Positions 27,708-54,617 of a stretch of DNA of 64,000 nucleotides are shown here, one piece after another. This stretch comes from Choricystis sp. odSpoLacu1 (taxonomy: Eukaryota > Chlorophyta > Trebouxiophyceae), in the NCBI GenBank assembly GCA_958009055.1, contig OY253659.1, positions 1 through 64,000 on the forward strand, read 5' to 3'. Under the pieces are notes generated by a model. That model searched no databases and was not told the DNA's origin. It worked only from the letters and a program-made list of their open reading frames with translations. Numbering within the stretch: position 1 is the first letter of the stretch; every line of letters begins with the position of its first letter. The position numbers were made by a program, and so were the translations under genes.

Positions 27708-27797
27708 AGAGGAGGCTAGGGCCAATGTAATCAAAAATAGATTAATCAGCTGACATCAATACAAAAAAAATGAAAGGTCACAAAGAGATGGAATCGG

Positions 27798-36075: not shown

Positions 36076-36468
36076 AGGGTTCAGGCACTAGATCGTGTAA
36101 ACAAACTTGCTGCTGGTTTTTGAGCGAAGACAACGTGACCACGTCAAAAGCTTGGGTGGCGGCATCATTACATACAAGTTTCATTTACGTTGTTGCGTGC
36201 CTTGCTCACCTGACGCCCTTATCCTGCCGATGCTTTATGTACACAGTGTGGTATGAACAAATGATTTTTTGAGTGTCGGCAGGGATTCGCATGTGCTGGC
36301 CGTGTCTGCAAGGAAATGAGATGGAAGGCAGGAAAAAACACATTCATGTTTCCATCCTCGGCTGTCCGTCAAGTGTGTGCTCTAGCGGTGCATGCGGGCG
36401 GCGGCGGTAGAGGGGGGGAAAGGGTTTTATCAAACAAGAGGCACCGCCCGGCCACTGTGCTGCATCGC
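36076..36468. other. Convergent intergenic spacer
   Basis: 393 bp between converging stop codons. It contains a TGTAA at 36096 and a G-rich run near 36410; no gene recognised. Confidence 0.5.
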
Positions 36469-37859
36469 TCAGCCCGACGTCGAGTTGGTGCCGTTGCCGA
36501 ACGGCGTGACCACGGGCGGCGTGGGGAATGAGTTGGCGGTGGCGATGGAGTCCAGCGTGCCAGCCGACAGCGAGCCCGCCGGCACGGAGAAGGACGACGC
36601 CTGCACGACGCCGGTCGGGTCAACGGCGGGCGACACGGCGCCGCCGCCCGTCGTGATGGCAGCCACTTCAGCGGCAGACGTGACGATGGGGTTGACGAGC
36701 TCGGGGTTGACGGCCAGTTTGGACACCTGGGACAGGCGGCGGCGGCCCAGCGCGGCGGGCGTCAGCGGCTGGCAGCCGACTGAAGAGGGTAGAGGGAAAG
36801 GGGGGGGCGTGTTGGTCAGTGGCTTGTGCAACTCATTTTGCTTCTCTCTCCTCTCTCCCTCTCCCCAAAACTCACTCGGCAGCTTGGACACGACGTAGCC
36901 CTTGGGGAACAGAGAGATGGCCTCCCCGCCCGCGTAGCCGCACGTGTACACGGTGGCCTTGGACTCCAGGGTGTCCTGCACGAAGAAGTTGAGGCGGCCG
37001 ACCAGGGGCAGCTGCTTGTCGATGGCCATCTCGATGCGGGTCACAAACTTGCCGGCGGTGGGGATGGTGACGGGGGTGCCGCCCGCCGTGCAGGAGCCCA
37101 GGGCGCCCTGCACCACGTTGAGCACGGTGCCGGCGACGGGGTCGACATAGCACACAATGTTGTTGGTGGCAGCGGAGGGGGAGGACGACGCGGCAGCGGT
37201 GGAGAAGGCGGAGCCTGCGTGAGGAGGGAGAGAGAGAGCGCGGTCAAACATCAGGTAACGTCCTTTTGGGCGTGGGGGAAAAATGAGGCAAAAAAAAAAC
37301 TCACCCTGCTTCAGGCTGGCCTCGAAACGAAGGCGGCCACGGGTGTAGTCCACGAGGCCAGACAGCGTGGTCGCGTTCTTGAAGTCGGGTTTGGTGCGGT
37401 TGCCGACCAGGTACGACTCAACCATGTCCACGGCAGCGGCTTTGCCAGCGATGGCGGACTGCACACCGCTAATCAGGGGCGACTGCGAGGGCGACCCCTT
37501 GGCAGCCAGGGTGGCGTTGATTTTGGAGGCGAGCTGGGGAGAAGGAGAGAGGAACCAAAAGGGTGAGGGGGGAGGGGGTGAGAGTCTGAACATATGCACC
37601 ACAAACTGTCACCGGCATCTTTCGAACAACAGTGATTAGGGTAGACGCGTGTACCGCAAAGCAGCCGCACTACAGCCAAAGGCTCGCGTTCACGCGACGG
37701 TTTCGCGAACCGTTGCATGGCAAAAATCAACCGAGGCAAAAAACAAAGCCACCCCACACTCACCAACGTCGAGTTCAGCCACGACGCGGACGCGGGCGAC
37801 AGGCACAGAGAAAGCGCGACAACGGCGAAAGCCGCGGTCGCAAGGGAGGAGGGCGCCAT
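36469..37859 (-). CDS. Secreted protein of unknown function (four exons)
   Basis: Exons 37764-37859, 37305-37533, 36876-37214 and 36469-36779, with GT-AG introns of 230, 90 and 96 bp. Joined, they give 324 residues in one frame. A signal peptide (LATAAFAVVALSLCLSPASA) is followed by a region rich in Ala, Ser and Thr with several NxS/T sequons, and paired cysteines in NNIVCYVDP, LGSCTAGG, YTCGYAGG and IGCQPL. The C-terminal 90 residues are Pro/Thr/Ser-rich and end NGTNSTSG. Strongly GC-biased third positions suggest high expression. I recognise no domain. A wall, matrix or capsule protein that serves as a glycan acceptor is one possibility, inferred only from secretion and context. Confidence 0.65.
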
Positions 37860-38112
37860 TGCGGTAGGGAGGGGGGGGGGGTTAAGGACGGAAAAAAAAG
37901 GCAGAGTTGTGTAACGTGCAAAAGAGACGTAAGCGTTTCACTGCGACTTGTGCCACGGCAAATGTCGGCTTTTGCCGGTGCAAAAAGACGTGGAATCCTC
38001 CCGTTGGCAAGCGTGCTGTGTGCTTTCTGTGCTTTCTGTGCTGCAGACCGTTACGCACTCTCTGCCTCCGACACAACAAACCAACGTCACGCACCAGCAC
38101 ATTCAACACATC

Positions 38113-38484
38113 ATGCGTTTTTTCTTCCTCACTCTGCTGCTGCTGACCCTGGCGGTGGCCCACAGCCGCCCCCTGACCGCCTCTCCCGCGGCCTCCAAAA
38201 AGGCGCAGGCTCCATCCGTCAAGTCTCGCTGGGCCGCCGCCGCCCCGTCCGCCAAGGCGCGCTGGGCGGCCGCCGCGCCCGCGTTGGCGCCGCGGACTGC
38301 GTACGCGGCCACATCCAAGCTGTCTGCCCAGTTTGAGGCTGTGGAGCCGCAGGCCGACGTGTCGCTTGCGTCGCCGGCCGGCGTCAACGAAGCCGCCGCG
38401 TACGCGGTCGCCGAGATGGTGGCTGAAGCCACAGGCAGTGCTGAGGAGGCTGAAAACGCGGCCCAGGCTGCTCTCGAGGTGTGA
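38113..38484 (+). CDS. Small Ala-rich secreted protein
   Basis: 123 residues from the ATG at 38113. A signal peptide (FFFLTLLLLTLAVAHS) precedes an Ala/Lys-rich segment in which a short unit recurs (KSRWAAAAPSA then KARWAAAAPAL). The acidic Ala-rich C-terminus (VAEMVAEATGSAEEAENAAQ) is probably helical. No domain recognised. It is divergent from the four-exon secreted-protein gene (254 bp between starts) and enclosed with it between the two DUF5672 genes. Basic-then-acidic layout and GC-rich codons suggest a real, well expressed protein. Confidence 0.6.
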   Translation: MRFFFLTLLLLTLAVAHSRPLTASPAASKKAQAPSVKSRWAAAAPSAKARWAAAAPALAPRTAYAATSKLSAQFEAVEPQADVSLASPAGVNEAAAYAVAEMVAEATGSAEEAENAAQAALEV

Positions 38485-38520
38485 AGCGTGGGCTGGGGGG
38501 AGGATTTGAGTATTTCCAAC

Positions 38521-38558
38521 GTTCAAAAAGGCTCGTGTCGTTCAAAGAGGCTCGTGTT
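38521..38558. repeat. 19-bp tandem duplication in intergenic DNA
   Basis: GTTCAAAAAGGCTCGTGTC is followed immediately by a second copy with two changes. It lies 37 bp after the stop of the small secreted-protein gene, inside an otherwise featureless 334-bp spacer (38485-38818). Confidence 0.8.
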
Positions 38559-38818
38559 TTGAGCGCCTTAAACACTGGGTCAACACGTGTAAAGCCAAAC
38601 TGCGTGCTTTATGCGTAGCTGCAAGATGAATGCGCACGGGAAGGGGGGGGGTGAGGAAACGCAATGAGACACCGACTTTTGCCATGCTGTGGCAAAAAGG
38701 TTTTTGCACGGCCTGCACAAAACCACTCGCCTCTCTGCACATCACTGTGTGACTGCATCTCTCTGCACCCCACCTGCACCCCGGCAAACCCCCGCATGAC
38801 ACGTACCACACCACGGCC

Positions 38819-39736
38819 ATGGCTGCCCGCCTGCTGTGGCCGGCCTACTTGGCTGTGATCGCAGCCAGTGCATCCCTCGGACACGCACGCCTGTCGTCCA
38901 CCACGCTGCCTCGCTCCACGTATCGCGCGATCACCGTGCTGTACGCCCCCTGTAACACGCTGGCATTCACGCTGGCCAACTTTGCGGGCAACTTGGGGGC
39001 TGAGTGGCCGATTGCAGTGCTGCACAATGATGCGTTGACCGAGTTTGTTGCCAACACCAAGCTGGCGCGCCAGCTGGTGGATGACGGGAGGTTGAGCGCG
39101 ATACCATTAGAGCGGAACGGCTTCAGCACTCTGTCCTCGTCCAGCACGGACGACTATTCTCGTCTTCTCACATCACCTGCCTTCTGGCATTTCCTCAACG
39201 CCGACCATGTTTTGATCTTCCAAACCGACAGCGTGCTGTGCTCATTGTCTCCCTGGAGTATGCACGATTTCCTGCAATATGATTACGTGGGCGCACCGCG
39301 GCAAGTGTCACACAACAGCGTTGACATTGGCGGTGGAGGCCTGTCCCTGCGCAGAGTCAGCACCATGCTGCACATCACCAACACCTATCCACCCGGCCTG
39401 GACGAAAACGAGAACGTCTACTTTGCGCGCTGCTTTGACATCATGCAACGCAGTGGGAGACGCGTGCATTTGCCGTCGCCCCATGTCGCGGCTTCATTTG
39501 CGTATGGAACGGGCATGCCTCCCGTCCTGGCTACGTTTGGCGTGCACAAGCTGGACGCGGTGCGGTGGGGCCCCGAAGGCGAGCGACACGTCACACCCAA
39601 CGCAGAAATCGTGGGCGAGACGTGTCCCGAAATAGTCGCGGGTGTGCTGTTGAGCTGCAACGTGTCCGAGTACCGTGAGGGTGAGGTTGAGTTCACGGAT
39701 GTGTTTTTGGCGGCGCCCAGTTTGCGAATCGAGTAG
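38819..39736 (+). CDS. DUF5672-family glycosyltransferase-like protein (copy 2)
   Basis: 305 residues from the ATG at 38819 with a signal peptide (about 1-22). It parallels the gene at 35071 block by block: YRAITVLYAPCNTLAFTLANF, WPIAVLHNDALTEFV, SPAFWHFLNADHVLIFQTDS and YDYVGAPRQVSHNSV, then IGGGGLSLRRVSTML. Differences cluster in the stem and C-terminus, suggesting changed acceptor use after duplication. No intron in either copy. Confidence 0.82.
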   Translation: MAARLLWPAYLAVIAASASLGHARLSSTTLPRSTYRAITVLYAPCNTLAFTLANFAGNLGAEWPIAVLHNDALTEFVANTKLARQLVDDGRLSAIPLERNGFSTLSSSSTDDYSRLLTSPAFWHFLNADHVLIFQTDSVLCSLSPWSMHDFLQYDYVGAPRQVSHNSVDIGGGGLSLRRVSTMLHITNTYPPGLDENENVYFARCFDIMQRSGRRVHLPSPHVAASFAYGTGMPPVLATFGVHKLDAVRWGPEGERHVTPNAEIVGETCPEIVAGVLLSCNVSEYREGEVEFTDVFLAAPSLRIE

Positions 39737-39870
39737 GCCACACATGAGGCTGGGCGTGGGAAAATTGGTCGGGCGGGTAGACAGGGAGCGCGTTTTTGCT
39801 GGTGTTTCTGTTTTTTTTTGTTTTTGTCAAAGCTTTGCGTCATTCACACAAAGCTGAACCGTCTCCAAAA

Positions 39871-39894
39871 TGACGCGACGCTAGCGTCGCGTCA
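39871..39894. repeat. Perfect 24-bp palindrome upstream of a large gene
   Basis: TGACGCGACGCT joined directly to its reverse complement, 46 bp before the ATG at 39941. Its half-site TGACG resembles a bZIP-type core. Either a regulatory operator-like site or the stem of a 5'-leader hairpin. Confidence 0.85.
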
Positions 39895-39940
39895 AAGCAC
39901 TGTCAATCGTGTTCAACAATGCTTTGACGCAGCACACCTC

Positions 39941-42900
39941 ATGCTGGCCCGCACAGCTCTGCTTCTATTGCTCGCCTTGGCAGCCGCTTCCCACGCTCGT
40001 CCACCCCCCCCTCGCATCCTGCTCTACACGCCACTGCACGTGTCAGAGCCAACAGACGCGGTGCGCGCATTTGCGGCCTGCCTGTTTGGCAAGCGCCCCT
40101 CCCTGCGTGGCCTCCAGTTTGACGTGCTGGTGTCAGTGTCTGGCGCCCATCCCGATGGACGGGATGCAGAAGTTAAGGAAATCATTGCAAATGCTGCACA
40201 CACGTCAAACGTGGCGGTGACGTTCACTGCTTTGGAAGACGACACCTACGCACTCGCCCTGTCCAACGACCACCGCAAAGATGCAGAATGGGTGTCGGGC
40301 CCTAATGCCGCGTTTTATGGCGCGTTGTTGAGTGGGCCTGTGTATGACGCACACACACGTCACTACGACCTCGTCCAACAACTGGAAACAGATGTGTGTG
40401 CCATGGCGGACGGCTGGTTGGATGTGTTGGTGGAACCCATGCTGCGTGATGTTTCCATCCTTGTTAGTGGAGCTCGCACCGCGTGCGACTGCGTTTATGA
40501 CGCGATCCATGATGCGTGCGAACCGATGAGCAAGTATGGGGATCACATGCTGGGGCACGTCAATGGCAACGCGCTGTATCGGGTTGGGAAGGAGTTGAGC
40601 AACGTGCTGACAAAGGCGCAAGCCAAGTTTGACAACACGGAACCATTTGATTTGGCAGTGTACTGGACGCTCAAGGAGGCGGGCATGCTCGTGAGTTAGA
40701 AAGGAATGGGGTGGGAGGGCTTGGGGAGAGCAGAAAGACCATCACACCATGATCCACCCAACCCTCCCTCTCTCCATCAGTCCCGCCTCCACGCCAACCC
40801 ACGCTACCTGAACACGCCCTGCCTCGTCGACCGCGCACGCTTCATTCTACCCGCCTACCGTGCCGTCCCCGACGCTGTGGCGGTGCACGCGCCGCGCCGC
40901 CTGCGCACGACCAGCGTGCAGGCAGTGGCCAGCCGTGGCTTGAATCGAGGCAAACAGGCGCAGCGGAAGCTGCACACGTTGACGGTGGTTGCGTTGACCC
41001 ATGCTGATGCAGATGTGTTGAAGCACCAGCAAACTGCGTTTGGCAACCAGTTTGTGGATGGCGTGGTGTACGTGGCGACCGATCGGGCGACGTACGATGC
41101 GGCGTCTCGCATCGCGCCACTGCGAGTGGTGGCCGCGTTTGGGGACGGCGGTTTGGATGCTGAAACGCGCACTCAACCAGGCGACAGCTCATCAACCAAC
41201 CACCACCACGCTCTGCTTGCCCTGGAAGCTTGGCCGCCATCGGCCACACCCGCTGGCACTCTGATGACCGCTGTCGCCCGCATCATCAACCTGGGTCACG
41301 ACGTGTTCTTCGTGGGAATGGATGCCGTGCCGCTGGCCAACTATGGCGGCAAACTGGCGGCATTGGACAGGAGCGCTGTGCATGTCGCGGGTGTGGCCAA
41401 GTCTGACGGTGCGGCGAGCTTGCCCGCCATGGCATATCTGCCTGCGTCTGCGGCAATGGTTACAATCGCCAACGAGTGGGCGTCGATGCTGCGCCAAGGA
41501 CGCATCCTGACGCACAAAGCATTGGCCGACTTGGCACACAACCACGGCACCACCCTCAGCGACCTGCCCTGGTCTGACTTTGTCGTGCATGGCCCCTTGC
41601 TGGCGTCTGGCTGGCCTGGAACCACGTTGAAAAGGCGTGCCATTGTGGCGGTGGGCAGTGGGGAGGCACACGGCTCATCCTCTCTCACGGCATTTCGACA
41701 CCGCGCCGCCCGCCTGTGGCCGCGCACCGCGCGTGTTGCCTGCACGAACTACAGCGTGCTCAGCAGACGCCCTGGCAACCTGACCAGTGTAAGCGCTGCA
41801 CGCGTCATCAGACGCCACGCCCAGTTTGCTGCGTTTGTGGCAGCTAAAAAAGTGGAGTGCGCAGTCGTGCCCGGCTTTGCTTTGCCTGCAACCCGGTCAC
41901 GCGTCGACGTGGGGTCGGTGCTGGATTTGACGGCGCTTGCGCACGCGTGCGGTAATGCTACGCTGCTGCCGTCGCGCGCGTGGATTGAGCCGGGAGCACG
42001 CAGGATCAAGTTTACGCCGAAGCATGGCCGAGGGGAGGCAACGCCACCATTATTACCGCTGGTTCGTCCACTGGAATCCGCCGCGCGCAGCGTTGTCCAA
42101 CGCCTTGGTACCAACTTTACGTGCGTGCGGGATCCTCGTCGGTCACTGGACGAAGTGGCATCGCTGACCCTTGGCACAGGCATTGACAGCTGGATCGAAG
42201 CTCTGAGACAACGGCACGGACTCAGTGCCCATCGCCAGCTGCTGCTGACGGGTGCTTGGAAGGCTGTGCGGTCCAGCGACATTATTGCTGCTGGTGCGGC
42301 GGCGGCCAGCCTTTTGGCTCTGGCTGATGTGGTCAGCGATGGCTTGCCACACCGCCTTCTCACCCCCGTCCTAGCTTCCACCCCTTTCAACCCACTGCTC
42401 GACCCTGCATGGGCCGATGTCGTGGAAGGCTGGGTCTGCGCACATCACGCCACCACAACCGTGGATGCGGAGCCTGCGTTCCCGCCACCCCAATCACCAG
42501 ACGCAGTCAGCAATGTCATCCTTCCCCACATCCCGGCATCCGTGTTGCGCCGCGACCTGGACGCCCTGCACCACTGGCGACAACGCGACAACAGGCTTAA
42601 GTCACTGCGGCCGCCTCCGATTGCTGTGGTTGGTGAGGATGAAGCGGTGTCATCGCCCACCTCGCTGCCCACGCTGCACACACTCGCCGACATGCAGTCT
42701 GGCCGTCTGATCGTGTTGCCATTTACCACAAAAGCCGGGCCCGACACTTTCTACACTTCCCCCAATATACTGCCGCCCAGTGTGCTGTCTTTGACGTTGC
42801 CTCGGCTAGCACCTGTGCTGGCCAGCCGCGGTGCGCTGTCCTCGGCCCCCGACCCACGCACGGCCTCTGTGGCCGCAGACTACCCCGCCGAAATGGCGCT

Positions 42901-43030
42901 CGTCAAGCGACTGGCACACAGTTGGTCGGCTTCTGTGGTGTGGACGGCACCAGGACGCTTGACTCTGACAGAGGTGTTGGACGCGGCGCGTGTGGTTCCA
43001 AGCCGTGATGCCATAGTCGTAGTTGCATGA
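39941..43030 (+). CDS. Giant multidomain glycosyltransferase-like protein (copy 1)
   Basis: Exons 39941-40690 and 40781-43030, with a 90-bp GT-AG intron in phase 0; 999 residues with a signal peptide. Exon 1 encodes a domain with RILLYTPLHVSEP, FDVLVSVSGAHP, YDLVQQLETDVCAMADGWLDVL and HVNGNALYRVG, resembling a GT-A fold with Glu-Thr-Asp as metal site. The next part (about 290-490) has a second nucleotide-diphospho-sugar transferase-like pattern (AVARIINLGHDVFFVGMDAVPL). From about 510 CTNYSVLSRRPGNLTS and later LLLTGAWKAV recall O-fucosyltransferase-like GT-B domains. All three assignments are weak. It is paralogous to 55872-59355, which supports the exon model. The C-terminus is overlain by long antisense frames, judged shadows. 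Confidence 0.6.
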
Positions 43031-43115
43031 TTTTGTTTTGCTCGTCTGTCCTCTTGTTTTTCTTTTTTGTTATTGCTACAACTGTCGCGCCAGTGGGCGA
43101 AATGAAGAACACCAT

Positions 43116-44399
43116 TCACTTTCCACCATGCGACGCCGCCAACAGCCCCGCCATCTCGTCCACGTACGCCTGCACCGTGGCCGCTTTCACATCCTCAGTC
43201 ACCGCCCAATCCAGCCTTTCATACTTGAACATGTGCTCCCGCACGTACGCTGTGTCCACGCCCGCGCACTCGGGCACAACAGCGGACCCCAGCGACAGGC
43301 ACAGCCCCTGTGTGACCGCCAGCACGTTGGTGCCATTGAAATCGGAGCCGTGCGCCATTTCATAGGTCGTGTGCACCGACATGCGTTGGTAGGGAACAGG
43401 GGTCAGTGCGTCCAAGTCCACAAAGTCGTACAAGTCGGCCGTGATGCCGGTCGTGTTGAGAAACGTGCCCAGCTGGCACATCCAGCAAAACGTCCCCATG
43501 GTGGCGTGGTCGATTGTGTCCATAGATCTCACAACGTCGTCCAGGTAGCACGTGCCATTGCGCTGCTTGTACCAGTCGTGGTACGCGGCAAACGTGTTGC
43601 GGTGGAAGGTCACGGGTTGAGACACCATGGTGTGAAACTTGAACGTGCCCGGCCCCATGAAGAATTCGACCACTGTTTCCCACATGCCCGCCTGGAACGC
43701 GCGCGAGTGAGGCAACCGAATCTTGCCATCCCGGAAGATCAGGCTGGGCGTGACGGGAGAAAACAGGACGCAGTCCGAGTCGATGGTGACCATCACGTCG
43801 GCGGTCGAGTAGTGGTCGGCAAACATGTAGCTCACCTGGTTGAAGATGCGAGGCGGCATGCAGGGTGCGTACTCAAACCGCACCACATAGTCGTGGCGCG
43901 TGTCGTTGGGTACCAGGTGGTGCACGATGGGGCGGTCGCTTTCGTCCAGCACGAGGACGATGCTGCCAATGTCACGCGGCCAAAACAGTTCCACACTGGC
44001 CGCCAGGTACTTGAGTTCGCGAGCACCATTGCACCCAGCGCGCAGCCAGAGGTCGACTTTGCCCGGGTAGCCCGCCCAGGCGGTGGCCAGCATGGCCTGC
44101 ACAGTTTCCACGGTGCTGGTGCCAGTCGCGGTCAAGGCTGGATAGCCCAGCGCCACAGGCTCTGTGTCCACCGCGGCGCATGGTTCGTCGCAGCTTTTAA
44201 AGTACTTGGATTCGCGGGCGCGGGGGCAGTCCTGCAGTTCCGTCAGTTTGTAGTCTTGGCCGCCGTGGCGGTGTGCAACGTGCGTGCGAAACGCGGGGTC
44301 GATCCTGGTCAGGCTGGCGGCGTTGCCGGCCACGGTGGTGGTGGAAAGAGCTGTTACGGCGCAGAATAGGAAAAAGGCGCAATTGAAGGTGGGCGTCAT
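43116..44399 (-). CDS. GT-A-like glycosyltransferase (DUF6492-like)
   Basis: 427 residues from the ATG at 44397-44399 with a signal peptide (about 1-25). After a 70-residue stem come GYPGKVDLWLRAGCNG, GSIVLVLDESDRPI and a likely catalytic DxD in DVMVTIDSDCVLFSPVTPSL (about 240-259). RDGKIRLPHSRAFQAG follows, and a C-terminal half with QPVTFHRNTFAAYHDWY. The pattern of an acidic DSD following a hydrophobic strand and preceding a Pro-Val-Thr-Pro-x-Leu is that of DUF6492-type putative glycosyltransferases. Complete; donor unknown. It is upstream-adjacent, on the same strand, to the colitose-type fusion gene's 3' end. Confidence 0.65.
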   Translation of the reverse strand: MTPTFNCAFFLFCAVTALSTTTVAGNAASLTRIDPAFRTHVAHRHGGQDYKLTELQDCPRARESKYFKSCDEPCAAVDTEPVALGYPALTATGTSTVETVQAMLATAWAGYPGKVDLWLRAGCNGARELKYLAASVELFWPRDIGSIVLVLDESDRPIVHHLVPNDTRHDYVVRFEYAPCMPPRIFNQVSYMFADHYSTADVMVTIDSDCVLFSPVTPSLIFRDGKIRLPHSRAFQAGMWETVVEFFMGPGTFKFHTMVSQPVTFHRNTFAAYHDWYKQRNGTCYLDDVVRSMDTIDHATMGTFCWMCQLGTFLNTTGITADLYDFVDLDALTPVPYQRMSVHTTYEMAHGSDFNGTNVLAVTQGLCLSLGSAVVPECAGVDTAYVREHMFKYERLDWAVTEDVKAATVQAYVDEMAGLLAASHGGK

Positions 44400-44721
44400 G
44401 ATGAGGAAGAGGGGGGAAGAGAGGGGTGGAAGAGAGTGTGGTCGATCTGTTTTGGCTGGTGTTACGAACAGAATCGCAGTCTCTCACACCCTCTGCTCGC
44501 AGTCTCTCACACTCTCCAACGACTTGGCACGCAGACCAGCTTTGGATCAGCTTTGACAGTGAGTGTTTTGGTTTAACAAAGGGTGATGAGAATTTTGCCT
44601 GTCGATGATGTTTTTTATGCCAACAGACTGGTTGTTGGGTCTTAACAGCCATTTCTCTCCCCCTTGGCCACAGCAGCGGCCCCAAGACGAAGCATCCGTT
44701 TATCTCTCTGTCCCCAATCTC
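44400..44721. other. Intergenic spacer between two minus-strand genes
   Basis: 322 bp containing the upstream region of the 43116-44399 gene. Several short CTCTC repeats (TCTCACACNCTC) occur near 44480-44520; no gene recognised. Confidence 0.4.
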
Positions 44722-47061
44722 TCACGCAGTGGCAGCGTTGGCAGCACACGCCGCCTCCACCACCACCCCGCCCTTGCTCACCCCACCCACCCGCACCGTC
44801 GCGGTCGCGCCCACACTCTTCCCCGGCTGCGCCCGGTACCATTCAGCCGTCGCCTTCATCCCATCCACCAGCGGCGTCAGCTTAAAGTCGGGACACAGCG
44901 CCTTGAACGCGCTGCCATCCGCGGTGCGCTTCAACGGCCCATCCACCGCATCCGTCTCAAACGCCAGCCCCCCTTCAAACCCAGTCGCCTCGCACACCAG
45001 CTCCGCCGCTTTGCGCACGCTCACTTCTTCGCCCGCCACGATCAACGGGTCGGCGGCATCATAGTTGAACAGAGCCCACACGCACGCGCGCGCCAGGTCG
45101 CCCGCGTGCATGATTTGACGCTCCGGGTTGCCGGTGCCCATGACGTGCAGGGGGGAGGTGGAGCCGCTGGCCTTGGCAGCCTCGGCGCGCGCAATCAGCG
45201 CGTTCACCAAGGGCGCGCTGGCCGGGTCAAAGTCGCCGTACGCCCCGAAAAAGTTGCCAGGCAGCACGCTCGCAAACGCGGCACCATGCTGGTCACGGTA
45301 CCACTGAGTCAGCTGGGCCAGGGCGCGCTTGGCGGCGGCGTAGGATTCGGCAGCAGGGTGGAAATGCCCCGCGTACAGTTTGTCCGCGTCAGCGGACATG
45401 GGGTAGGCCGCGTCCTTGGGGAACATGACGGTCGACAGGATGCTGATCACTTTGATGGGTCCCGCCCACGACTGAAACTCGTGAGCAGCGCGCAACACGT
45501 TGTTGTTCACATTGACATTGTCCAGCCAGAAATCAACGGGTTTGGCCGTCATCACGCGCAACGCTTGCAGGCTGGCCGCGCAGTGCAGCACGTGGGTGGG
45601 TTGGTACGTCTTGAAGATGCGGTCCACGTCTTCCGCTTTGGTGAGGTCGCCATCGGCACGGCTGACAAAGGCCCAGTCGGCGTCGGCGCGCAGGGCGGGG
45701 TCGGCGTCCACAATGTCGTGCACGTGGCGGCCCAGCATGCCGCCCGCGCCTGTGACCAGCACCATTTTGCGAGGCTTGAAGTCAAAGCCCAGCATGACGT
45801 CCACCAGCTTGGCGATGGTGGCGTCCTCGATGCGAATCTGGTGCACGCCAATGAAGAAGCCGCGCTTGTGGACGGCTTCAGCGCCCGGGAAGTCTTCTGG
45901 GCGCGCGGTGGGGCAGTAGGCCGCGATCGCGGGCTGCCTCACAAAGTTGCCACTGATGACGGGCCGGTTTTCGATGCCGTTGGCGGACAGGTAGGCCAGG
46001 TAGTCTTGCAGATGGTGGGCAAACGGGCGGTGCAGCAGGGCTGCAATGCCAAACCAGGCCGGGTTGGTGCCTGGCGCAGCGCGCGCGAGCGACAGAATGC
46101 CGGCCGCCCGGCCGTCCGCCTCCATGGCCGCCTGGATCCTGGCCATGTTGTCGCGCCTGCAGTCGTTGAAGGCGTGCATCTTGGCCAGCTGCACCGTCAG
46201 CATGGCGCCTTGGACTTCCAGGGGGCGCAGGTTGTAGCCCACGTTGACAAACAGAAAGCGCGGGTCGATGTCGGGAAAGGAAGCCTCCACTTCCTTGGCG
46301 TTGGTCAGGTGGCGCGTCCACCCGTGCGCGCGCAGGCAGCGCAGGTAATTGTAGTCGTCCTCCGTTTTGCAGACGACCATGCCGCCCTCGCCCGACGTGA
46401 TGTGGTGCGAAAAGTAGAATGAGTACGTGCCAAAGTCACCGGCTGTGCCCAGGAAGCGAGAGGTGCCATCTTCGGCGATGTAGGTGGAGCCCAAACTCTC
46501 GCACGTGTCTTCGACGAGCACGACGTCGTGGCGTTTCACAAACGCGAGGAGCGCGGGCATGTCGGTCGAGTTGCCCAGCACGTGCACCGCCATCATGGCC
46601 TTGGTGCGGGGCGTGACGTAGCGGTCCAGCACGTTGACGTCGGCGTTCAGGGTGGCGGGGTCGACGTCCACAAACACGGGGGCCAGCCCCAGCTGAATCA
46701 GAGGAAACGCAGACGTCGACCAGCACACGGCGGGCACCAACACTTCATCCCCCGGGTTGAGGTGCACCGACCGCAGCTTGTTCACAATGGCGGCCACCGC
46801 CAGCAGGTTGGCGGACGACCCCGAGTTCACCATGACGGCGTAGGGAGCGTTGATGGCAGCGGCAAACGCTTTTTCGGCAGCCTCCACTCTTTCGCCCAGC
46901 GTCAGCCGCCCGGTCAACAGGACGTCCACCATAGCCGTGATTTCATCGGCGCCGAACGGGTTCAGGGCCAGAGGGAAGAGGGCAGTGGTGGGAGCATCAG
47001 CCGCGCGGCGCGCGGTCCACTCTGCCGCGACCGCGTCACGCCATGCTGGAACAGGGGCCAT
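44722..47061 (-). CDS. ColD-ColC-like fusion: predicted GDP-L-colitose synthase (3-dehydratase + epimerase/reductase)
   Basis: 779 residues from the ATG at 47059-47061, no signal peptide, no intron. Residues about 30-425 are a DegT/DnrJ/EryC1 PLP fold: NSGSSANLLAV (79-89), EDTCESLG with pyridine-binding Asp185, and FSHHITSGEGGM, where His219-His220 occupies the place of the Schiff-base Lys. Loss of that Lys is the mark of ColD, which removes the C3 hydroxyl of GDP-4-keto-6-deoxymannose. The other His-type enzyme (E1/RfbH) needs an Fe-S cysteine cluster that is absent. Residues 432-760 are a GDP-fucose-synthase-like SDR, as in ColC: VTGAGGMLG (436-444), STVMFP, Tyr574-x3-Lys578. ColC epimerises and reduces the ketone to GDP-L-colitose. 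A GDP-sugar transporter starts 188 bp away, divergently. GDP-mannose dehydratase is not in the window. Confidence 0.8.
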   Translation of the reverse strand: MAPVPAWRDAVAAEWTARRAADAPTTALFPLALNPFGADEITAMVDVLLTGRLTLGERVEAAEKAFAAAINAPYAVMVNSGSSANLLAVAAIVNKLRSVHLNPGDEVLVPAVCWSTSAFPLIQLGLAPVFVDVDPATLNADVNVLDRYVTPRTKAMMAVHVLGNSTDMPALLAFVKRHDVVLVEDTCESLGSTYIAEDGTSRFLGTAGDFGTYSFYFSHHITSGEGGMVVCKTEDDYNYLRCLRAHGWTRHLTNAKEVEASFPDIDPRFLFVNVGYNLRPLEVQGAMLTVQLAKMHAFNDCRRDNMARIQAAMEADGRAAGILSLARAAPGTNPAWFGIAALLHRPFAHHLQDYLAYLSANGIENRPVISGNFVRQPAIAAYCPTARPEDFPGAEAVHKRGFFIGVHQIRIEDATIAKLVDVMLGFDFKPRKMVLVTGAGGMLGRHVHDIVDADPALRADADWAFVSRADGDLTKAEDVDRIFKTYQPTHVLHCAASLQALRVMTAKPVDFWLDNVNVNNNVLRAAHEFQSWAGPIKVISILSTVMFPKDAAYPMSADADKLYAGHFHPAAESYAAAKRALAQLTQWYRDQHGAAFASVLPGNFFGAYGDFDPASAPLVNALIARAEAAKASGSTSPLHVMGTGNPERQIMHAGDLARACVWALFNYDAADPLIVAGEEVSVRKAAELVCEATGFEGGLAFETDAVDGPLKRTADGSAFKALCPDFKLTPLVDGMKATAEWYRAQPGKSVGATATVRVGGVSKGGVVVEAACAANAATA

Positions 47062-47248
47062 TGCTGCCGGAGAGTCTTGGTTTTGTGTAAGTTAATATCA
47101 CTTGATTGTACACGACTTGCCCGTGATGAGATATGGGAACGCGATTGTGGAAACGCTTCTATGCAAAAAATGTAATTTGGGCTGTTGGCAAAAATGCCAG
47201 TGATCGCCCATCACTTCTCTCGACGCGCTCTCTCGCGCTCGACTCAAA
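47062..47248. promoter_or_regulatory. Shared divergent promoter region of fusion enzyme and GDP-sugar transporter
   Basis: 187 bp separate the two start codons. No core promoter motif is certain; T/A-rich segments occur at about 47160-47190. The spacing implies a bidirectional promoter and hence co-expression. Confidence 0.45.
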
Positions 47249-48338
47249 ATGACCGACTCTGAAAAAAACAACGTCGCCACCGCGCTGGACTCCACCTCCA
47301 CAGACAAGCATGCGTCCTCGACGCAGCCACCGCCTGCCACTCGCACCACCGTCGTCACCGTGCTCATTCTGTACTGCATCTCGGGCACGCTGCTGACGCT
47401 GGCCAACAAGGTCGCCGTCAAAGCGTTTCCTTATCCCAACACCATTGCGTGTCTACAGAATGTGGTGACGGTGGCGCTGCTGTCCACGGGGGCCGCGGTG
47501 GCACCAACAACATTCGGCACCATGCCCTCCCTGACCCGCGACACGCTGAGCGACTGGGTGCCCCTAACAGCCTTGTTTGTGGGCATGCTGGTCAGCAGTC
47601 TTCTGGCGTTGATGCATGTGAGCGCTGTGACGTTGATCGTCATTCGCAATTTGACGAGTTTGACGGTGGCTGCACTGGAGGCCATCGTTTTGCGCACCCG
47701 TGTCCCGCCCGCCGGTGTCGCATCACTGGCCGGCATGCTGGTCGGCGCCATCATGTACGGCCTGCACGACATCACGTTCAGCGCCGCCGGCTACGCCTGG
47801 CTGGCCCTTAACCTGGCCTCCACCTCGGCCTACCAAGTGCACGTCAAGCGCGTCATTTCGTCCGACGCGGCGCGCGCGATTGGTCCGCTCGGCTTCTCCT
47901 ACATCAACAACATGCTGTCCCTGCCCATGCTGGTTGCGGTTGCCACTGTGACAGGCGAGCCCATGAACATGATTGCTGCTTTTGACAGGGTGCAGGGAAT
48001 GGCCAGCATCAACAGTGGCACTGCCGCCCTGCTGCTGGCGTCGGGCATGCTGGGCTTCTGCTTGAGCGTGTCCGCGTTCAAACTGAACACGCTGATCAGC
48101 GCGACGTCCATGATGGTGGCTAACAACGCGAACAAGGTGAGGTCTTGGAGATAGAGAGAGAGCGAGTGTGTTCAAAAACACACCTCCACTGACGACACCC
48201 CCCCACACAACACTCCCCCAGTTCCTCGTCATCATCGCCAGCGAGGTGCTGATCCAGCGCACGCTGGACGCGGTGGCCACCGCCGGCACACTAGGCGTCA
48301 TGGCGTTTGGGTGGCTGTACTCGCGCGCGCGCGAGTGA
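47249..48338 (+). CDS. GDP-sugar transporter (VRG4/GONST-like, DMT superfamily)
   Basis: Exons 47249-48136 and 48222-48338, with an 85-bp GT-AG intron in phase 0; 334 residues. A hydrophilic N-terminus of about 30 residues precedes about ten TM helices. ISGTLLTLANKVAVKAFPYPN in the first helix region, VSAVTLIVIRNLTSLTVAALE in the middle, FSYINNMLSLPML (compare the FYNN motif) and MMVANNANK where GDP-mannose transporters have GALNK point to the VRG4/GONST1/GDP-fucose group. Cargo should be a GDP-linked sugar entering the Golgi. Divergence from the colitose-type enzyme suggests GDP-colitose. The second exon supplies the last helix (FLVIIASEVL). TGTAA lies 30 bases past the stop. Confidence 0.83.
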
Positions 48339-48484
48339 GGGGTTGGGAGAGCTTTCTTTCTAACTTCTGTAAACGGTATACGTTGTCAACTTGCTCTATA
48401 GCCGCGGTCGGCGAAAACACAAATACAAGCAGAAGGTGCCAACCAAACAACGTTTTCGGCGCGTTGCGATGAAAACAAATTCAC

Positions 48485-50440
48485 TCACAGCCTCACCACA
48501 ACCGCGCCCACGACCCACGCCATGCAGCTCATCGCCGCCACCACCCCAACATTGCGTGCCAACAAACGGCTATCAGTGGTCGACGCTCGAGCTCCGTGCG
48601 GCACCGCCACGTCGCGCAAACATGCCGTCAACAGAAATAATCGCCGAGACAATGCCAGCGCCACCACACTGGCAATCGCAAAACTGACCAGTGGCGCCCC
48701 CCGCACCACAGCCAGCAACGCCTTGGGCTGACCGTCAGCCACGTCAGTCGCCATCCACGTGTGAAACTGGGCGATGTAGGTTTCCAGGGTGATGGTGCCG
48801 CACCATGCTAACAGGGAGGATGCATGCGTGCGCAGCGCCGGGTGCACGTTGAGCAGCGCGATCCACGCGGTGATGGGGATCCAGGATGTGTAGGGGTGGA
48901 CAGCATTGTAGTGTTGTTTGGGCAGGATATAGAGTGTGCGTGCCCACAGGGCCAGTGTGCCGACAGCAGCAACCACTATGCTAGACCGCACCGCGACGCG
49001 TGTGCGGCGAGGTGCGGCGTCGACTCGTTGCAACGCCGTATCCACGGCCGGCTGCAGCGCACCGCACAGCATGCCGTGAATCCAGACGTAGCGGTCCAGC
49101 CCCGACCGAAACCGCCACTCGTGCATGGTGTCGGGTGAGGGGCGGCGCTGTGGAGGATAGGGGGGGGGGGGGGGGGGTGAGGCCACGAGATCGACTGAAA
49201 AACAGCTGCGCCGCTTTCTCTCACTCCATCTCTCCCCACCACACATCCACACCCACCGGATCCGTGTACGCCAGCACCGGTTTGAGCGGAGCCCACACCG
49301 CGTCAAACACGCCCGGAATCTCCCACACAGCGGCCACAATGCACACGCTGGCCACGAGTTTGGCAGCGAGGCCGATCGCGCTCTGGTTTGCCGACGGCGC
49401 CACCGCCAGCACGCCATACACGGCCAGCGTGAACAGTGTGTGCATAGGGCAAATGTAGTACAGCATGTACGAGTTGTTGAGCACGACGCAGCACGCCACC
49501 GCCAAAAAGTGCAAACGCCACAGCGACTGCAGCACGCGGCCGAGCATAAAGTCGCCGCTCGTCACATAGTACCGAAAGTTGCCGTACCCCGTCATCCACA
49601 CGTAGGCCGCGATGAACACTCGGATTGCGTTGTAGAGCTCTTTGGCGTTGAAATAGTGGTAGAGAAGGAACAGGATCTGGGTGAAGAGGGTTGGTGAGGT
49701 TGACAGAAACAAAACACGCCAGGCTGCTCCTCACACCTCTTCCCCGCCCTCACCCCTACCTGCATCCACCCTTTCCACTCCTCGGTTTGCTGTCGGCTCA
49801 ACACGGTGTCCGATTTGGCGGTCGTGCTGCCTGCCAACCCCGCCACGCCAGCCACGCACAGGCACACAAACCCAAGCATATCACGCGAGTACGCTTTGGA
49901 GGCGCGAGGCAGGGAGGATGTGCGGTCGGCAACGTAAAACCAGGTCAGAATGGCGCCGAGCTCGGTGCTGTGTGGAGAGGGTCATAGTGAGAGAGAGCGT
50001 GTGTTTGGTGGGGCTGTTCAACTGCTGCTTTGGTCGCGGCCTCCTCCCCTCCACCTCCTTTCCTCCTCGACTCACCACCACCGCAGCACATCTCGGCACT
50101 CCACCAACGCGTCCTGCTCCAGCGTCAGACACCGCACCAGGCCGCACCGCCACAGGCTCGGTGCAGGCGGCTGTGTGTGTTTGGGCAGCAGCACGCTGGG
50201 CACGCGTTTGGCCGTTTCATTGATGGCAGCCTGTTGGGCAGCGCGCCGCTCCAAGAATTCAGAATAGGCCCACAGCAATGTTGTGCAGGCGCACGCCACG
50301 AAGAAGCCGGCCTGTGTAGGGAGGTGAGGGGGGTGGTGGTTGGGAGGGGGAAACTCGCTTCAGACACACGCGCACAATCATTCTGCAAACTGCTCACTCA
50401 CCTGCCCAGCAGACAGTGGCTCCAGCATCGGTGCGTCCAT
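48485..50440 (-). CDS. Cas1-type 10-TM acyltransferase (glycan O-acetyltransferase, CASD1/RWA-like)
   Basis: Five exons: 50402-50440, 50076-50311, 49760-49967, 49257-49676 and 48485-49147. GT-AG introns are 90, 108, 83 and 109 bp; joined length is 521 residues in one frame. Diagnostic Cas1p signatures span the junctions: EEWKGWMQ|ILFLLYHYFNAKELYN, WMTGYGNFRYYV, and HEWRFRSGLDRYVWIHGM, then NAVHPYTSWIPITAW and TLETYIAQFHTWM. Relatives transfer acetyl groups to capsule xylan/mannan (fungal Cas1), sialic acid (CASD1) or wall polysaccharides (RWA) in the Golgi. The N-terminal PC-esterase domain found in Cas1p/CASD1 is missing here but is encoded by the divergent neighbour. A G/C run fills much of the last intron. 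Confidence 0.85.
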
Positions 50441-50661
50441 GGCGCAGCTTGGTGTGCACCGTGAAAAAATGTTGCCTTTTTCGTGCGGTTTTTGGGTGGC
50501 GTGCAAAAATCATGATTTTTTGCACGACCATGTCTGAACAGCTTTGTGATGATGCGCCTGTGTGGACGCCTTTGCTGACTCTCCGGACCCGCACAACAGA
50601 CGTCTTGCACCGGTCCCTCTGCCCCCATAATGTGACTCAACGACGTGTGTCTCTCGCGTAC

Positions 50662-51903
50662 ATGCCGCCCTCTGCCTTGGCATCCACCGCGCTCTGGTGC
50701 GTGATCCTGCTTGCACGCAACGCTGCCTGCAGCGACCACCGGTTGACGCACGGTCATAGGCACCAGGTGGCTGGCCTTCCAAGCCTTCGTCGACGCCCTG
50801 ACACCAACCAAACGTCGCCCTGCACTTTGGTCACCGCCATCGATGCACCCACCAGCCCCGTCCACGTCTACCACTGTCCTGCCGACCTTGCTTATATGTT
50901 TCGCACTGCTGGAACGACACGCCCCTCCTTGCTAGTGCGTGTCATTGGACCACACACGATCTACACGGGCCTGTCTCGCCAGCTGGACACGCACACGCAC
51001 ACAGTTTCTTACTCTGTTCGCCACACCGGCCTGCACCACGCCTTCATCAGGGTGCTGCTGGAGGACAAGCCGCGCAACAATGTGACTGGTTCGTGTTTGT
51101 CGAGGCTGCCGACAGTGAATCACACGTTTGGTGTGGCTGATAATGATGTGAAGCACGTGGCACACACACCGCCTGATGGCGACGACTTTTGTTGCTGGCA
51201 GACGCCTGCCACACTCACCGACAGGTGGACCGAGTTTCACGACGTTTCATCCAACCAAGCCACCATGCGGCACCGCTACACCGACCTGACGCTCAACAAT
51301 GCCCACCTGCTCCCCGACACCACTTTGGCCACCTGCATCGCCAACGCCACCATATGCCTGTATGGTGACTCGCAGATGCGCAACCTGCGCGACTCGTTGA
51401 CTGCTTTTGTGGCTGCCCACCAGTTGCACAACGCGTCGTTCGTGTACACGCTGTTGCGGTACCCTGGCAACCTGACGGACGCTCTGCATGCCACCCGGTC
51501 CACACCATGCACACATAGCCTGTTTAATTTTGGCCAGTGGCCGCTGGGGTGGGTTGAGTACCGGCCCTGGTCGTTTGGCGAGTTGGAGGGTGCACTGGCC
51601 TCATTTTTGAAACGCGTCGCCGACTTGACCGGCCACGTGTACTGGGTGTCAACGCCCCCGTTTCCCATCACCCACCCCAAAGTGGCGGCATGCCCGCCTA
51701 ATGACTGGCGCCTGCTGACTCACATCGACACGTTCAACGAGGCGTCAAAAGCGTTGGTTGAAAAGCATGCCTCAATCCGCTACATCGACACTTTCCGCGC
51801 CATGCTGCATCTGCACGACTTTACATTTGACGGGTCACACTACCAGGAGCCTTTGTCCTTGGATGTGGCGCGGTTGGTACTTTCTCAGCTGTGTGAAATA
51901 TGA
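50662..51903 (+). CDS. PC-esterase/SGNH-like secreted protein (TBL/CASD1 N-terminal type)
   Basis: 413 residues; the ATG at 50662 is chosen because it opens a signal peptide (SALASTALWCVILLARNAAC). The earlier open frame reaches into the neighbouring gene and starts at GTG. The C-terminal half holds the GDS block ICLYGDSQMRNLRDSLTAF and, near the end, the DxxH block DFTFDGSHYQ, the catalytic pair of PC-esterase proteins such as TBL O-acetyltransferases and the lumenal domain of CASD1. The first 230 residues form a separate lumenal domain with Cys pairs and sequons. It starts 222 bp from the 10-TM gene on the other strand, so the two could together act as one O-acetylation system. Confidence 0.75.
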   Translation: MPPSALASTALWCVILLARNAACSDHRLTHGHRHQVAGLPSLRRRPDTNQTSPCTLVTAIDAPTSPVHVYHCPADLAYMFRTAGTTRPSLLVRVIGPHTIYTGLSRQLDTHTHTVSYSVRHTGLHHAFIRVLLEDKPRNNVTGSCLSRLPTVNHTFGVADNDVKHVAHTPPDGDDFCCWQTPATLTDRWTEFHDVSSNQATMRHRYTDLTLNNAHLLPDTTLATCIANATICLYGDSQMRNLRDSLTAFVAAHQLHNASFVYTLLRYPGNLTDALHATRSTPCTHSLFNFGQWPLGWVEYRPWSFGELEGALASFLKRVADLTGHVYWVSTPPFPITHPKVAACPPNDWRLLTHIDTFNEASKALVEKHASIRYIDTFRAMLHLHDFTFDGSHYQEPLSLDVARLVLSQLCEI

Positions 51904-51936
51904 TGAGAAGAAGGATTGGGGTGTCTAAAAATCAGC

Positions 51937-53159
51937 TTACTTTTTTACAACAACGCCGCACACTTTCGTGAGTGTGGGCGCGTTTTCTGTTCTGTTAAAA
52001 TTTGTTGCAGTTATGTGCAACTTGCCGTCGCACTCAAAGGAATGATTACTGTTTCGAAATATGTGCCTTTCAATCAGCGTGTGCGGCAACTCCCACGTTG
52101 TGTTCACCCTTCCGATTTCGCCTTTGTCGCAACCCACGTGAATGACGCTCTGAAGTTTGTTGGAAAACTGAACAAACATCTCAACGCTTGAAAACATTTC
52201 GAATGCTTGTGCTGACAAGAGTGTGGCTTTAGCCTGTGTCGTCATCCAACAGGCTTTGTCACTGCGACCGGGCACATCGGTATCATACGTCCACCCATCA
52301 CCGGCAAACGTGGTTGCCAAGTCGTGCTCAGGCAAGCCCAGCATCTCTCCGGAAGCAGCGCAGAATATGTCTTCGTTGTGCCTGTGCACTGGACGCTCTT
52401 GATGACGATGCTTGTGAAAGAAAAAAGGGTGAGCTTCAGCAAGCCGCTTCCCGACAAGCTCGCCAAGCTCCTCGTGTCCAGCTTCGGACAGATGTTGGGC
52501 GTCTCCCTTGAACAAAGCTTCTCTGGTTCCATTTGCACAGGGGTTGCCATAACGCAACCACGTCCAGCTTTCTAGGTCAATGTTGAGAAGTCTGTGTTTC
52601 CGGGCAACAGCATGAAAGTCATAGAAAGTAGGACCGCTTTTGACGCCCTCTGCATTCCCGTCGTGTGCCTTGTTGCAAGAAAACTGACTGACGAGAGCAA
52701 CAGGCGCGCCAGATTTTTGGCGAGCAATGGCAGCAAGTTCTTCGATGTCCCCCCCGTTGATGCCAAATTTCAACATGACAAGATCGCAGCGGGCAGGATC
52801 AAACCTATCAAAGCAAGTCGAATAAAAAGCTGCACCAGTGGCTCCTCGAGCATAGTTAAAAACCTGAGAGAGCGGTGGCACGATGAGTTTTATGGACTGG
52901 GTCGTCTGCTTTTTTCGTGTGTGCGTAGCACGTGCGCCATCGCGCCTACCTGCAACGAAACGCCTGTCAGGTTTCCAAACACTGAGGCAGCTTTGGCGTG
53001 CCACAGTCGCTCAGGAGGCGTTGGTGGGTGTCCACCACCTGCGGACGTCGACCCTCCAAAAACGCAAGCGACTGCGTCTGTTTTGATGGTGTCGTTGCAG
53101 CTTGTTTGTAAAACATGAAAAACGCTTAACAATAGCAGCACATTCCAGATTCGCGCCAT
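51937..53159 (-). CDS. SGNH/GDSL-type hydrolase, secreted
   Basis: Exons 52950-53159 and 51937-52863, with an 86-bp GT-AG intron in phase 0; 378 residues with a signal peptide. Block I is VACVFGGSTSAGGG, with the nucleophile Ser in GGS rather than GDS. The next exon gives VFNYARGATGAAF (block II), LVMLKFGINGGD (block III-like, oxyanion Asn) and GDAQHLSEAGHEEL (catalytic Asp-x-x-His). The C-terminal 140 residues form an extra beta-rich domain with cysteines. An acetyl esterase acting on a polysaccharide is the likely role. It converges on the PC-esterase gene with 33 bp between stop codons, completing a three-gene O-acyl group. Confidence 0.75.
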
Positions 53160-53382
53160 TGAGAGACCAAAGACGCTTGAGACGGTTTTTTTTTAAGTGT
53201 GAAGGCAAATAAAAATTTGGGGGCCTTTTGGGTCCCTTTGACACGAACTGTTTTATTGAGTGCATGCGCTAGCATCGATGACAGCGTCGTTGATGAAACA
53301 TCACGCTTGACAAATAAACTCAAATGCTGGAATCATGTACACATCGCCAAACCAAAACCAAAACCCTCTTCACTCCCTCTAA

Positions 53383-54384
53383 TCACGGCCAATAGTGCAG
53401 CCTCACCCCCTTGTCCCTTAACGCCGCGAAATTGCGCGTCGCCTGGGTCAGCGTTACGGGTGGCGCCCCAAAGTATTTCACCATATCGGGGGAGTGGTAG
53501 TGTTTTTCGAAAAACATTTCACTGATGCGTGCGATGGCGCAGTCGTCACCCTCCAGTTGGGTCATAATGGCGGATTCAACAGCATCGTTGTCGATGTCCA
53601 GCTTGAACGCCACAAAGTCGCCGGGCTCGGCAACATGTTTGATGAGCGTAATTGGGTTCATGCGGGACGCGGGGTCGGTGGTGATGGGGGCATTGAAAAA
53701 GTGGAGCACGGGTTTGAGATCGTCCGGCACCGCGGCCCAGTAGCTGCTTGCATCCATGGGCCGCGCTTCCCACGCATAAATAGCATCAAAGTGGATGCCT
53801 CTCTCCGCATACGCCTGCACAAACCAGTGCAGACTGGTGTCGTAGGTGCCCGTGCCGGCATCGATCAAATTTTTGCGGCCAGGGTACAGGTCGAACAAGC
53901 GGTCGTCGGTGTTGTCCAGCAGCGTGATGTAGGCCCGGCTCTGGACGTCCATGGCCGGGTGACCAGGAGGTGTACAGGGTTTGGGGGTGTGCGGGTGGCG
54001 CATGTGTCCCACCAGAGGTTCGATGGGTTCCTTGATGATGGTGCGCTTGCCAGTGTCGGAGACGCACGTTTTCTCAAAGTGTGAGAAAACTGACGAGTTG
54101 GCTGCGTCCGGGGATGACGGTGCCGCTGCCCCCGCCAACCACACAGCCACTCGGTCTTGCTGCGTCTGCAGCTCGGCACAAGGCTGCGTGATCGCATCCA
54201 CGCGCGCCATCCAGTCAGTTTCCCAGGCGCTGGGCACGTACTTGATGTCGCGCACGGCGTGGCATGGTGTGAGTGAAGGGGGTTGCCGCTTGGTGCGGTG
54301 TGTGCGCGTGATGCGGGTGGCCGGCGCAATGGTGCACAGTGTGAAAAGAATTGCGGTCACGCAGGCTGCGTGGTGGCGCGGCAT
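53383..54384 (-). CDS. Methyltransferase-like secretory protein (FkbM-related)
   Basis: 333 residues from the ATG at 54382-54384 with a signal anchor (HHAACVTAILFTLCTIAPA). The second half has NLIDAGTGTYDTSLHWFVQ (SAM-site position, about 170-188), FDAIYAWEARPMD (acidic strand) and DFVAFKLDIDNDAVESAIM (the FkbM-type Lys-x-Asp-x-x strand). The glycine loop reads Ala-Gly-Thr-Gly-Thr, short but acceptable. The first 160 residues, with several Cys, have no family I recognise. A TTTAAATATC element lies about 75 bp upstream in the transcript direction. Substrate unknown. Confidence 0.6.
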   Translation of the reverse strand: MPRHHAACVTAILFTLCTIAPATRITRTHRTKRQPPSLTPCHAVRDIKYVPSAWETDWMARVDAITQPCAELQTQQDRVAVWLAGAAAPSSPDAANSSVFSHFEKTCVSDTGKRTIIKEPIEPLVGHMRHPHTPKPCTPPGHPAMDVQSRAYITLLDNTDDRLFDLYPGRKNLIDAGTGTYDTSLHWFVQAYAERGIHFDAIYAWEARPMDASSYWAAVPDDLKPVLHFFNAPITTDPASRMNPITLIKHVAEPGDFVAFKLDIDNDAVESAIMTQLEGDDCAIARISEMFFEKHYHSPDMVKYFGAPPVTLTQATRNFAALRDKGVRLHYWP

Positions 54385-54617
54385 TTTTTTTGGCCAAGTT
54401 TTGTTTGTGGCGCTGTGGATTTGCTTTGCTGTGTGCCTGCAGTTTCGCAAACAAAATGATATTTAAAAACACTGAAAAAGGAGTCGAAATGAACAAAAGA
54501 AACTCTGCCTTAACAATGAAACCCAGCCCTGCTACAATCAATGTGGGCGTTTGTTGACAGCAACAGCAGATTGCTTAGTGTCGCCGTATGTTGTTGCGTG
54601 GGTCGAGCCTCCCCACT

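Follow-up and report, generated by a model that had tools for sequence, protein, structure and literature searches.

The window analysed here, the first 64,000 nucleotides of contig OY253659.1 in the assembly GCA_958009055.1 of the green alga Choricystis sp. odSpoLacu1, carries a reverse-strand gene (44722 to 47061) for a protein of 779 amino acids (aa) in which a ColD-type 3-dehydratase is fused to a relative of eukaryotic GDP-L-fucose synthase (GFS) that lacks the epimerase residues. From the sequence we predict that it acts as a bifunctional GDP-3,6-dideoxy-D-hexose synthase with GDP-tyvelose as its product, a reading to which we give a probability of roughly 0.5; the wider prediction, a non-epimerising 3-deoxygenase/reductase of whatever exact product, probably holds. 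Somewhat short of even odds, we further suggest that a eukaryotic family, built from a bacterial-type ColD-like 3-dehydratase and an epimerase-stripped GFS copy, may make GDP-tyvelose on one polypeptide and so serve surface glycans in eukaryotes that include algae and rotifers. A first-pass annotation of the window had instead proposed a ColD-ColC fusion leading to colitose. The parts of the gene are listed below; the set of 88 fusions is defined later in the text.

44722..47061, reverse strand: gene of the 779-aa protein, a single open frame; predicted ColD-type 3-dehydratase and GFS-like non-epimerising C4-reductase
45805..46977, reverse strand: N domain (residues 29-419), fold-type I of pyridoxal/pyridoxamine phosphate (PLP/PMP) enzymes, from Pfam and PDB matches; 37% identity to E. 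coli O55 ColD
46402..46407, reverse strand: His219-His220, with His219 aligned to the catalytic His of ColD, from alignment and PDB variants 3b8x and 2r0t
44830..45768, reverse strand: C domain (residues 432-744), extended short-chain dehydrogenase/reductase (SDR) of the GFS superfamily, from Pfam, PDB, and trees
45433..45435, reverse strand: Ser543 of the SDR triad; Ser in 83/88 fusions
45427..45429, reverse strand: Val545, at the general-base Cys place of GFS/ColC (E. coli Cys109, human Cys116)
45328..45342, reverse strand: Tyr574 to Lys578 of the SDR triad; Tyr in 82/88 and Lys in 76/88 fusions
45211..45213, reverse strand: Pro617, at the general-acid His place of GFS/ColC (E. coli His179, human His186)

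The 779 codons run uninterrupted in the list of open reading frames (ORFs), and the annotated ORF with its two fused domains was borne out by matches to each half. Pfam family DegT_DnrJ_EryC1 covers residues 38-419 (E 6.8e-70) and the Epimerase family covers residues 434-671 (E 4.9e-38). The best PDB match of the N half is ColD (2gms; 247.5 bits, residues 29-413), and that of the C half is human GFS (about 210 bits, residues 432-743).

The His219-His220 pair does stand at the place of the catalytic Lys, as had been annotated: His219 falls at the ColD position where PDB variants 3b8x and 2r0t depart from the wild type. The catalytic His of ColD is His188 in the numbering of PMC8987622, which describes a PMP/glutamate chemistry for this enzyme. 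Across the 120 listed of 1222 matches plus the window protein, the pair is found in 119 of 121 aligned rows, the other two being gapped. The first His is also present in all 115 bacterial and viral relatives, but the second only in 44, with Gln in the remaining 71. As the second His is so often Gln, the informative mark is the first His, and the reading of the pair as such as a ColD signature needs to be narrowed to that residue. The Cys-rich stretch of the E1 enzyme 3bcx aligns to a Cys-free stretch of the N half, and the 779-aa protein scores 272.3 bits with the NCBIfam RfbH model against a cut-off of 423. The iron-sulfur (Fe-S) E1/RfbH type is rejected for the N half, as the missing Cys stretch speaks against it.

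In the N-half tree, the two Lys-type outgroup rows separate from the fusions with full support; a position of the first half among Lys-type aminotransferases, named beforehand as contrary to the annotation, was thus not what we found. The fusion N halves group with ColD-like proteins of Bdellovibrionota, Verrucomicrobia, SAR11, planctomycetes, and large viral contigs (support 99/99), and the neighbouring branch holds E. coli ColD and four viral rows (81/64). Forcing the fusions, E. coli ColD, and locus L110 into one clade is rejected by the approximately unbiased (AU) test (p-AU 2e-94), and a constraint of single origin for the fusion N halves gives p-AU 0.22. Because the fusions lie in a clade beside known ColD and not inside it, we use the label ColD-type: the first half has the His and lacks the Fe-S Cys motif, as expected for the annotated ColD, but it falls outside the clade of the biochemically known enzyme. 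Compared with E. coli O55 ColD (GDP-4-keto-6-deoxy-D-mannose 3-dehydratase; PDB 2gms; L006:8702-9868), it shares the DegT fold, His for Lys, the ED.CES motif, and the absence of an Fe-S Cys stretch, and differs in its 37% identity, its separate clade, and its fusion to a reductase. On these grounds we class the N half as a ColD-type 3-dehydratase; GDP-4-keto-6-deoxy-D-mannose is its predicted substrate, and GMD is encoded in the genome.

It is the C half that departs from the annotation. The ColC of E. coli O55 and the GFS of E. coli both have the motifs SSC.YP and SH, whereas the window protein reads LSTVMFP and SAPLVNA, which places Val545 and Pro617 at the positions of the Cys109/His179 dyad. 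Ser543, Tyr574, and Lys578 are all intact; the annotated Tyr574 and Lys578 are therefore present, but they speak for a reductase only, the Cys and His of an epimerase being absent. We compared 88 fusions, namely the window protein and 87 proteins longer than 560 aa with both halves from the 120 matches listed, leaving out shorter proteins as well as P0114 and P0118, which do not have such a C half. In the five-letter patterns used below, such as SCYKH, the letters stand for Ser, the Cys place, Tyr, Lys, and the His place of a GFS-type site. Cys occurs at the base place in none of the 88 (one is gapped) and His at the acid place in none; Pro stands at the His place in 75, the pattern is SVYKP in 51 and SFYKP in 16, and Ser/Tyr/Lys are all retained in 76. 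By contrast, SCYKH is found in 120/120 GFS proteins (120 listed of 7933 matches), which indicates a family-wide change and not the quirk of one gene or a sequencing error. Three Rossmann glycines are invariant across 18 aligned fusions.

The trees agree with the residues. Dyad-less C halves lie on one side of a branch in the largest tree (59/59 rows, support 83), and they stand together in two further trees (11/11 rows, 100/99; 14/14 rows, 100/99). In all three trees, the dyad-less C halves, eukaryotic GFS, and viral reductases of the pattern SNYKR are split with full support from bacterial GFS and ColC, and in the tree with 14 dyad-less rows the dyad-bearing fusions are also on the eukaryotic-GFS side. 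All bacterial GFS rows were taken either from loci that bear ColD or from E. coli, so that other bacterial GFS could lie nearer to the C half. The AU test rejects a clade that joins the fusions to ColC (p-AU 7e-12), the group for this test having been named after the larger tree had been seen. ColC (GDP-L-colitose synthase; E. coli O55 L006:9865-10788, adjoining ColD, with a record naming the GDP-L-fucose synthase family) resembles the C half in its SDR superfamily and Ser/Tyr/Lys, but its Cys/His dyad is present and its place in the trees is with bacterial GFS; the C half has Val/Pro and is 24% identical to it. The absent dyad, the tree position, and the AU test together rule out ColC for the C half, and colitose as the annotated product is no longer upheld once the ColC identity falls. 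Among the families tested, the nearest sequence kin is eukaryotic GFS (TSTA3/GMER; human 4b8w and 4bkp), which shares Ser/Tyr/Lys; the differences are the missing Cys116/His186 pair, the fusion, and a separate dyad-bearing GFS in the same genome. Judged in this way, the C half is related to eukaryotic GFS but has lost the residues for epimerisation.

The configuration left when 6-deoxy-D-altrose is deprived of its 3-hydroxyl is D-arabino, and D-altrose has the C4 configuration expected for tyvelose. In human GFS, Cys116 is described as the base and His186 as the acid for both the C3 and the C5 epimerisation, and the variant C116S gives about 70% D-altrose product (PMC12362431). Tyvelose is 3,6-dideoxy-D-arabinohexose (PMC8784694), and it is therefore the sugar predicted when the product of a Cys-crippled GFS loses its 3-hydroxyl. 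Natural cases of GFS homologs without the full dyad that also act on GDP substrates are DdahC and MlghC of Campylobacter jejuni, called reductases devoid of epimerase activity and able to reduce GDP-4-keto-6-deoxymannose unepimerised (PMC7949155); they differ from the fusion in having T/H or Y/R where it has V/P, in belonging to a heptose pathway, and in being unfused. The C half lacks the dyad but has the reductase residues, as a GFS-like non-epimerising C4-reductase would, and from the missing dyad and the kept triad we infer C4 reduction without C5 epimerisation.

The route that we propose would begin with GMD, encoded elsewhere in the genome, which from its family should make GDP-4-keto-6-deoxy-D-mannose. 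The ColD-type half, to judge from its fold and active site, would then strip the C3 hydroxyl with PMP and glutamate, and the C half would reduce the 4-keto group with NADPH while C5 stays D, as the missing dyad and intact Ser/Tyr/Lys suggest. If the hydride arrives on the face used by GFS, GDP-3,6-dideoxy-D-arabino-hexose (GDP-tyvelose) would result. A divergently transcribed transporter may import it into the Golgi, where glycosyltransferases from the surrounding island would use it. We count three further observations as favourable. The neighbouring transporter-like ORF resembles GDP-mannose transporters. The RmlC-type epimerase family (PF00908) has no match in this genome, against 11 of 14 control genomes that do match. 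In three large viral contigs (L094-L096, 130-428 kb), at about 9960-12090, a ColD-type gene abuts a GFS-like SNYKR reductase. Each fetched stretch of L094-L096 also has a separate SCYKH GFS, and GMD was identified in L094; in this gene pair, C3 deoxygenation appears to have been linked with a reductase lacking the dyad for a second time, independently of the fusion. As a contrast case, in L110 and L115 ColD lies next to dyad-bearing ColC-like genes.

A number of points weigh against GDP-tyvelose. With 37% identity to ColD and a place in a neighbouring clade, the N half may have a different exact substrate from the one predicted. Human GFS C116A and H186A were below detection (PMC12362431), so that dyad loss alone is not enough for a good reductase and further adaptation has to be assumed; DdahC retains its His (T110/H180) and MlghC has Y/R, and neither precedent is V/P. 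In 12 of the 88 fusions part of Ser/Tyr/Lys is missing, with HH retained in all 12. Dyad loss is also not universal among ColD-GFS fusions. A second search, with the alignment of 18 fusions as query, listed 20 further proteins, all with HH and seven without a complete C half; of the 13 with a C half, seven lack the Cys and show Pro where the His would be (the Cys place of P0241 is gapped), and four, from this mostly more distant set, retain SCYKH (P0246, P0251, P0252, and P0255, the first with its halves in reverse order), while P0245 is SGYKH (His only) and P0256 is SCYKN (Cys only). In addition, the C4 stereochemistry of the product is argued by analogy, another acid/base pair may serve the C half, and the separate GFS of the cell might use the intermediate as a substrate.

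The least unlikely of the alternatives is that the same two steps occur with the hydride on the other face, giving the C4 epimer GDP-3,6-dideoxy-D-lyxo-hexose, since the C4-reductases of C. jejuni are 41-44% identical and yet unlike in C4 outcome (PMC10440746); the D-altrose formed by the C116S variant of human GFS (PMC12362431), however, has the C4 configuration of tyvelose. A little less likely is a one-polypeptide GDP-L-colitose synthase, ColD plus ColC, that epimerises C5 by residues other than Cys/His. The N half is ColD-like, the C half belongs to the ColC/GFS superfamily with 24% identity to E. coli ColC, and fusions with HH and an intact dyad do exist elsewhere, in the four SCYKH proteins; but the dyad is gone in 88/88 nearest fusions, the ColC clade is rejected, and loss of either dyad residue to Ala inactivates human GFS (PMC12362431). 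The SCYKH, SGYKH, and SCYKN fusions lie outside the dyad-less clade. Among them, the four with an intact dyad (P0246, P0251, P0252, and P0255) are candidate single-chain synthases of the colitose type, a group that does not include the window protein.

Two other readings carry still smaller odds. The C half might only reduce, after a separate protein has epimerised C5, giving colitose or another L sugar; epimerase and reductase are split in this way in C. jejuni (PMC7949155, PMC10440746), and the cell's dyad-bearing GFS could act in trans, but the genome has no RmlC-type match, and its only substantial ColC matches are GFS and the fusion, with two weak hits besides. The least probable of the four holds the C half to be a non-catalytic or regulatory leftover of a protein that only deoxygenates. 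The 12 triad-deficient fusions with HH would fit this, as would the N-half-alone proteins among the matches listed (62-69% identity, 436-485 aa; some may be partial gene models), but the triad is intact in the window protein and complete in 76/88 fusions, and the Rossmann glycines are invariant in the 18 aligned. We prefer a non-epimerising reductase, with GDP-tyvelose as the predicted product.

The same chemistry as predicted here, likewise on a GDP-4-keto sugar, is described for the 3,6-dideoxyheptose pathway of C. jejuni, although there the GDP-linked C3-dehydratase, epimerase, and C4-reductase are separate and the sugar is a heptose (PMC10440746). The known CDP-tyvelose route (CDP-paratose pathway plus a 2-epimerase; PMC7851689) leads to the same sugar, but it is CDP-linked and uses an Fe-S E1 with E3 and several proteins, whereas the route predicted here is GDP-linked and would need one protein without an Fe-S stretch.

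The fusion is not unique to this genome. Among the matches listed it occurs in Rotaria socialis, Adineta vaga, A. ricciae, A. steineri, Chromera velia, and Bathycoccus prasinos, and most other listed holders are environmental or unnamed proteins. In P0044-P0049, P0051, P0052, P0054, P0055, P0058, and P0072 the reductase triad is decayed (e.g., PEFEQ) with HH intact, and several of these are bdelloid-like; of seven triad-decayed fusions placed in a tree, six are within the clade that holds the named bdelloid proteins. No ORF of at least 150 aa contains both halves in any of the 115 loci fetched, 35 of them viral and the others the top 80 of 116 bacterial ones, and a bacterial or viral fusion was accordingly discarded as the direct source. 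Viral contigs scanned with the window protein or P0012 as a single query gave no relative; the alignment query yielded the 35 loci.

Bacterial O antigens are the best-known source of 3,6-dideoxyhexoses. Among eukaryotes, tyvelose is reported in Trichinella glycans (PMC8784694, PMC6272458) and ascarylose in nematode pheromones (PMC10005090). The open-licence literature searched gave no account of the fusion, the family-wide dyad loss, its eukaryotic spread, or a GDP-tyvelose route, and nothing on tyvelose in bdelloids. Each half is of a known kind; their fusion with dyad loss across a eukaryotic family appears new in that literature. Two residue losses and a fusion could turn a fucose pathway into a dideoxy-sugar pathway, and the chemical prediction is testable in named eukaryotes, in that Bathycoccus, Chromera, and bdelloid rotifers would build dideoxy sugars.

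The genomic setting comprises the following features.

1..370, no strand: (CCCTAA)n telomere, a sequence repeat
1575..55711, no strand: glycan-gene island with a sulfotransferase, GT92, FkbM methyltransferases, UDP-glucose dehydrogenase, three TPT genes, GT47, a Fringe-like gene, GT4, WbsX, two DUF5672 genes, and a Cas1 acyltransferase
32694-34925: WbsX-type glycosyltransferase
47062..47248, no strand: gap of 187 bp between divergent start codons, from ORF coordinates
47249..48154, forward strand: TPT-family nucleotide-sugar transporter-like ORF (Pfam TPT, 1.4e-9)
G000:C1:513989-517863: exons of GFS (forward strand) and GMD (reverse strand), a tail-to-tail fucose gene pair

The telomere at positions 1-370 makes the region subtelomeric. 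The telomere repeat of many green algae is TTTAGGG, and the CCCTAA unit here corresponds to the TTAGGG type. The contig that carries the fusion gene is telomere-capped and 730,122 bp long, and the UDP-glucose dehydrogenase gene in the window is split over two reading frames, as by an intron; the intron-bearing nuclear setting given in the first-pass annotation is supported by these three observations. A contaminating or bacterial gene is unlikely given the capped 730-kb contig, the split gene, and the eukaryotic homologs. The genome (14.6 Mb in 19 contigs) has 26 chlorophyll a/b-binding matches, which by eye we take to be of the green-algal type. GMD and the separate GFS are both exon-split, the catalytic exon of GFS reading SCYKH, and there is one ColD-type gene, with two weak DegT matches elsewhere.

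The 187-bp gap between the fusion gene and the divergent TPT-family ORF is possibly a shared promoter. In the PDB, with E values of 1 or less, this ORF matches GDP-mannose transporters only (9s35, 47.8 bits; 5oge, 27.6 bits). The 64-kb window holds both DUF5672 matches of the whole genome, six of its eight FkbM matches, and its one strong WbsX gene. The WbsX family is known mainly from bacterial surface polysaccharides, whereas the gene here lies on a nuclear chromosome. Virus-resistant lines of Ostreococcus show altered expression of many glycan genes on the small outlier chromosome (PMC5082852), and the subtelomeric glycan island of the window resembles that glycan-gene setting. A good part of the ORFs scanned in the island stretch gave no Pfam match; these include two long ORFs beside the fusion, at 43116-44399 and 40706-43030, the former with a DSD motif, seen by eye, that suggests a glycosyltransferase.

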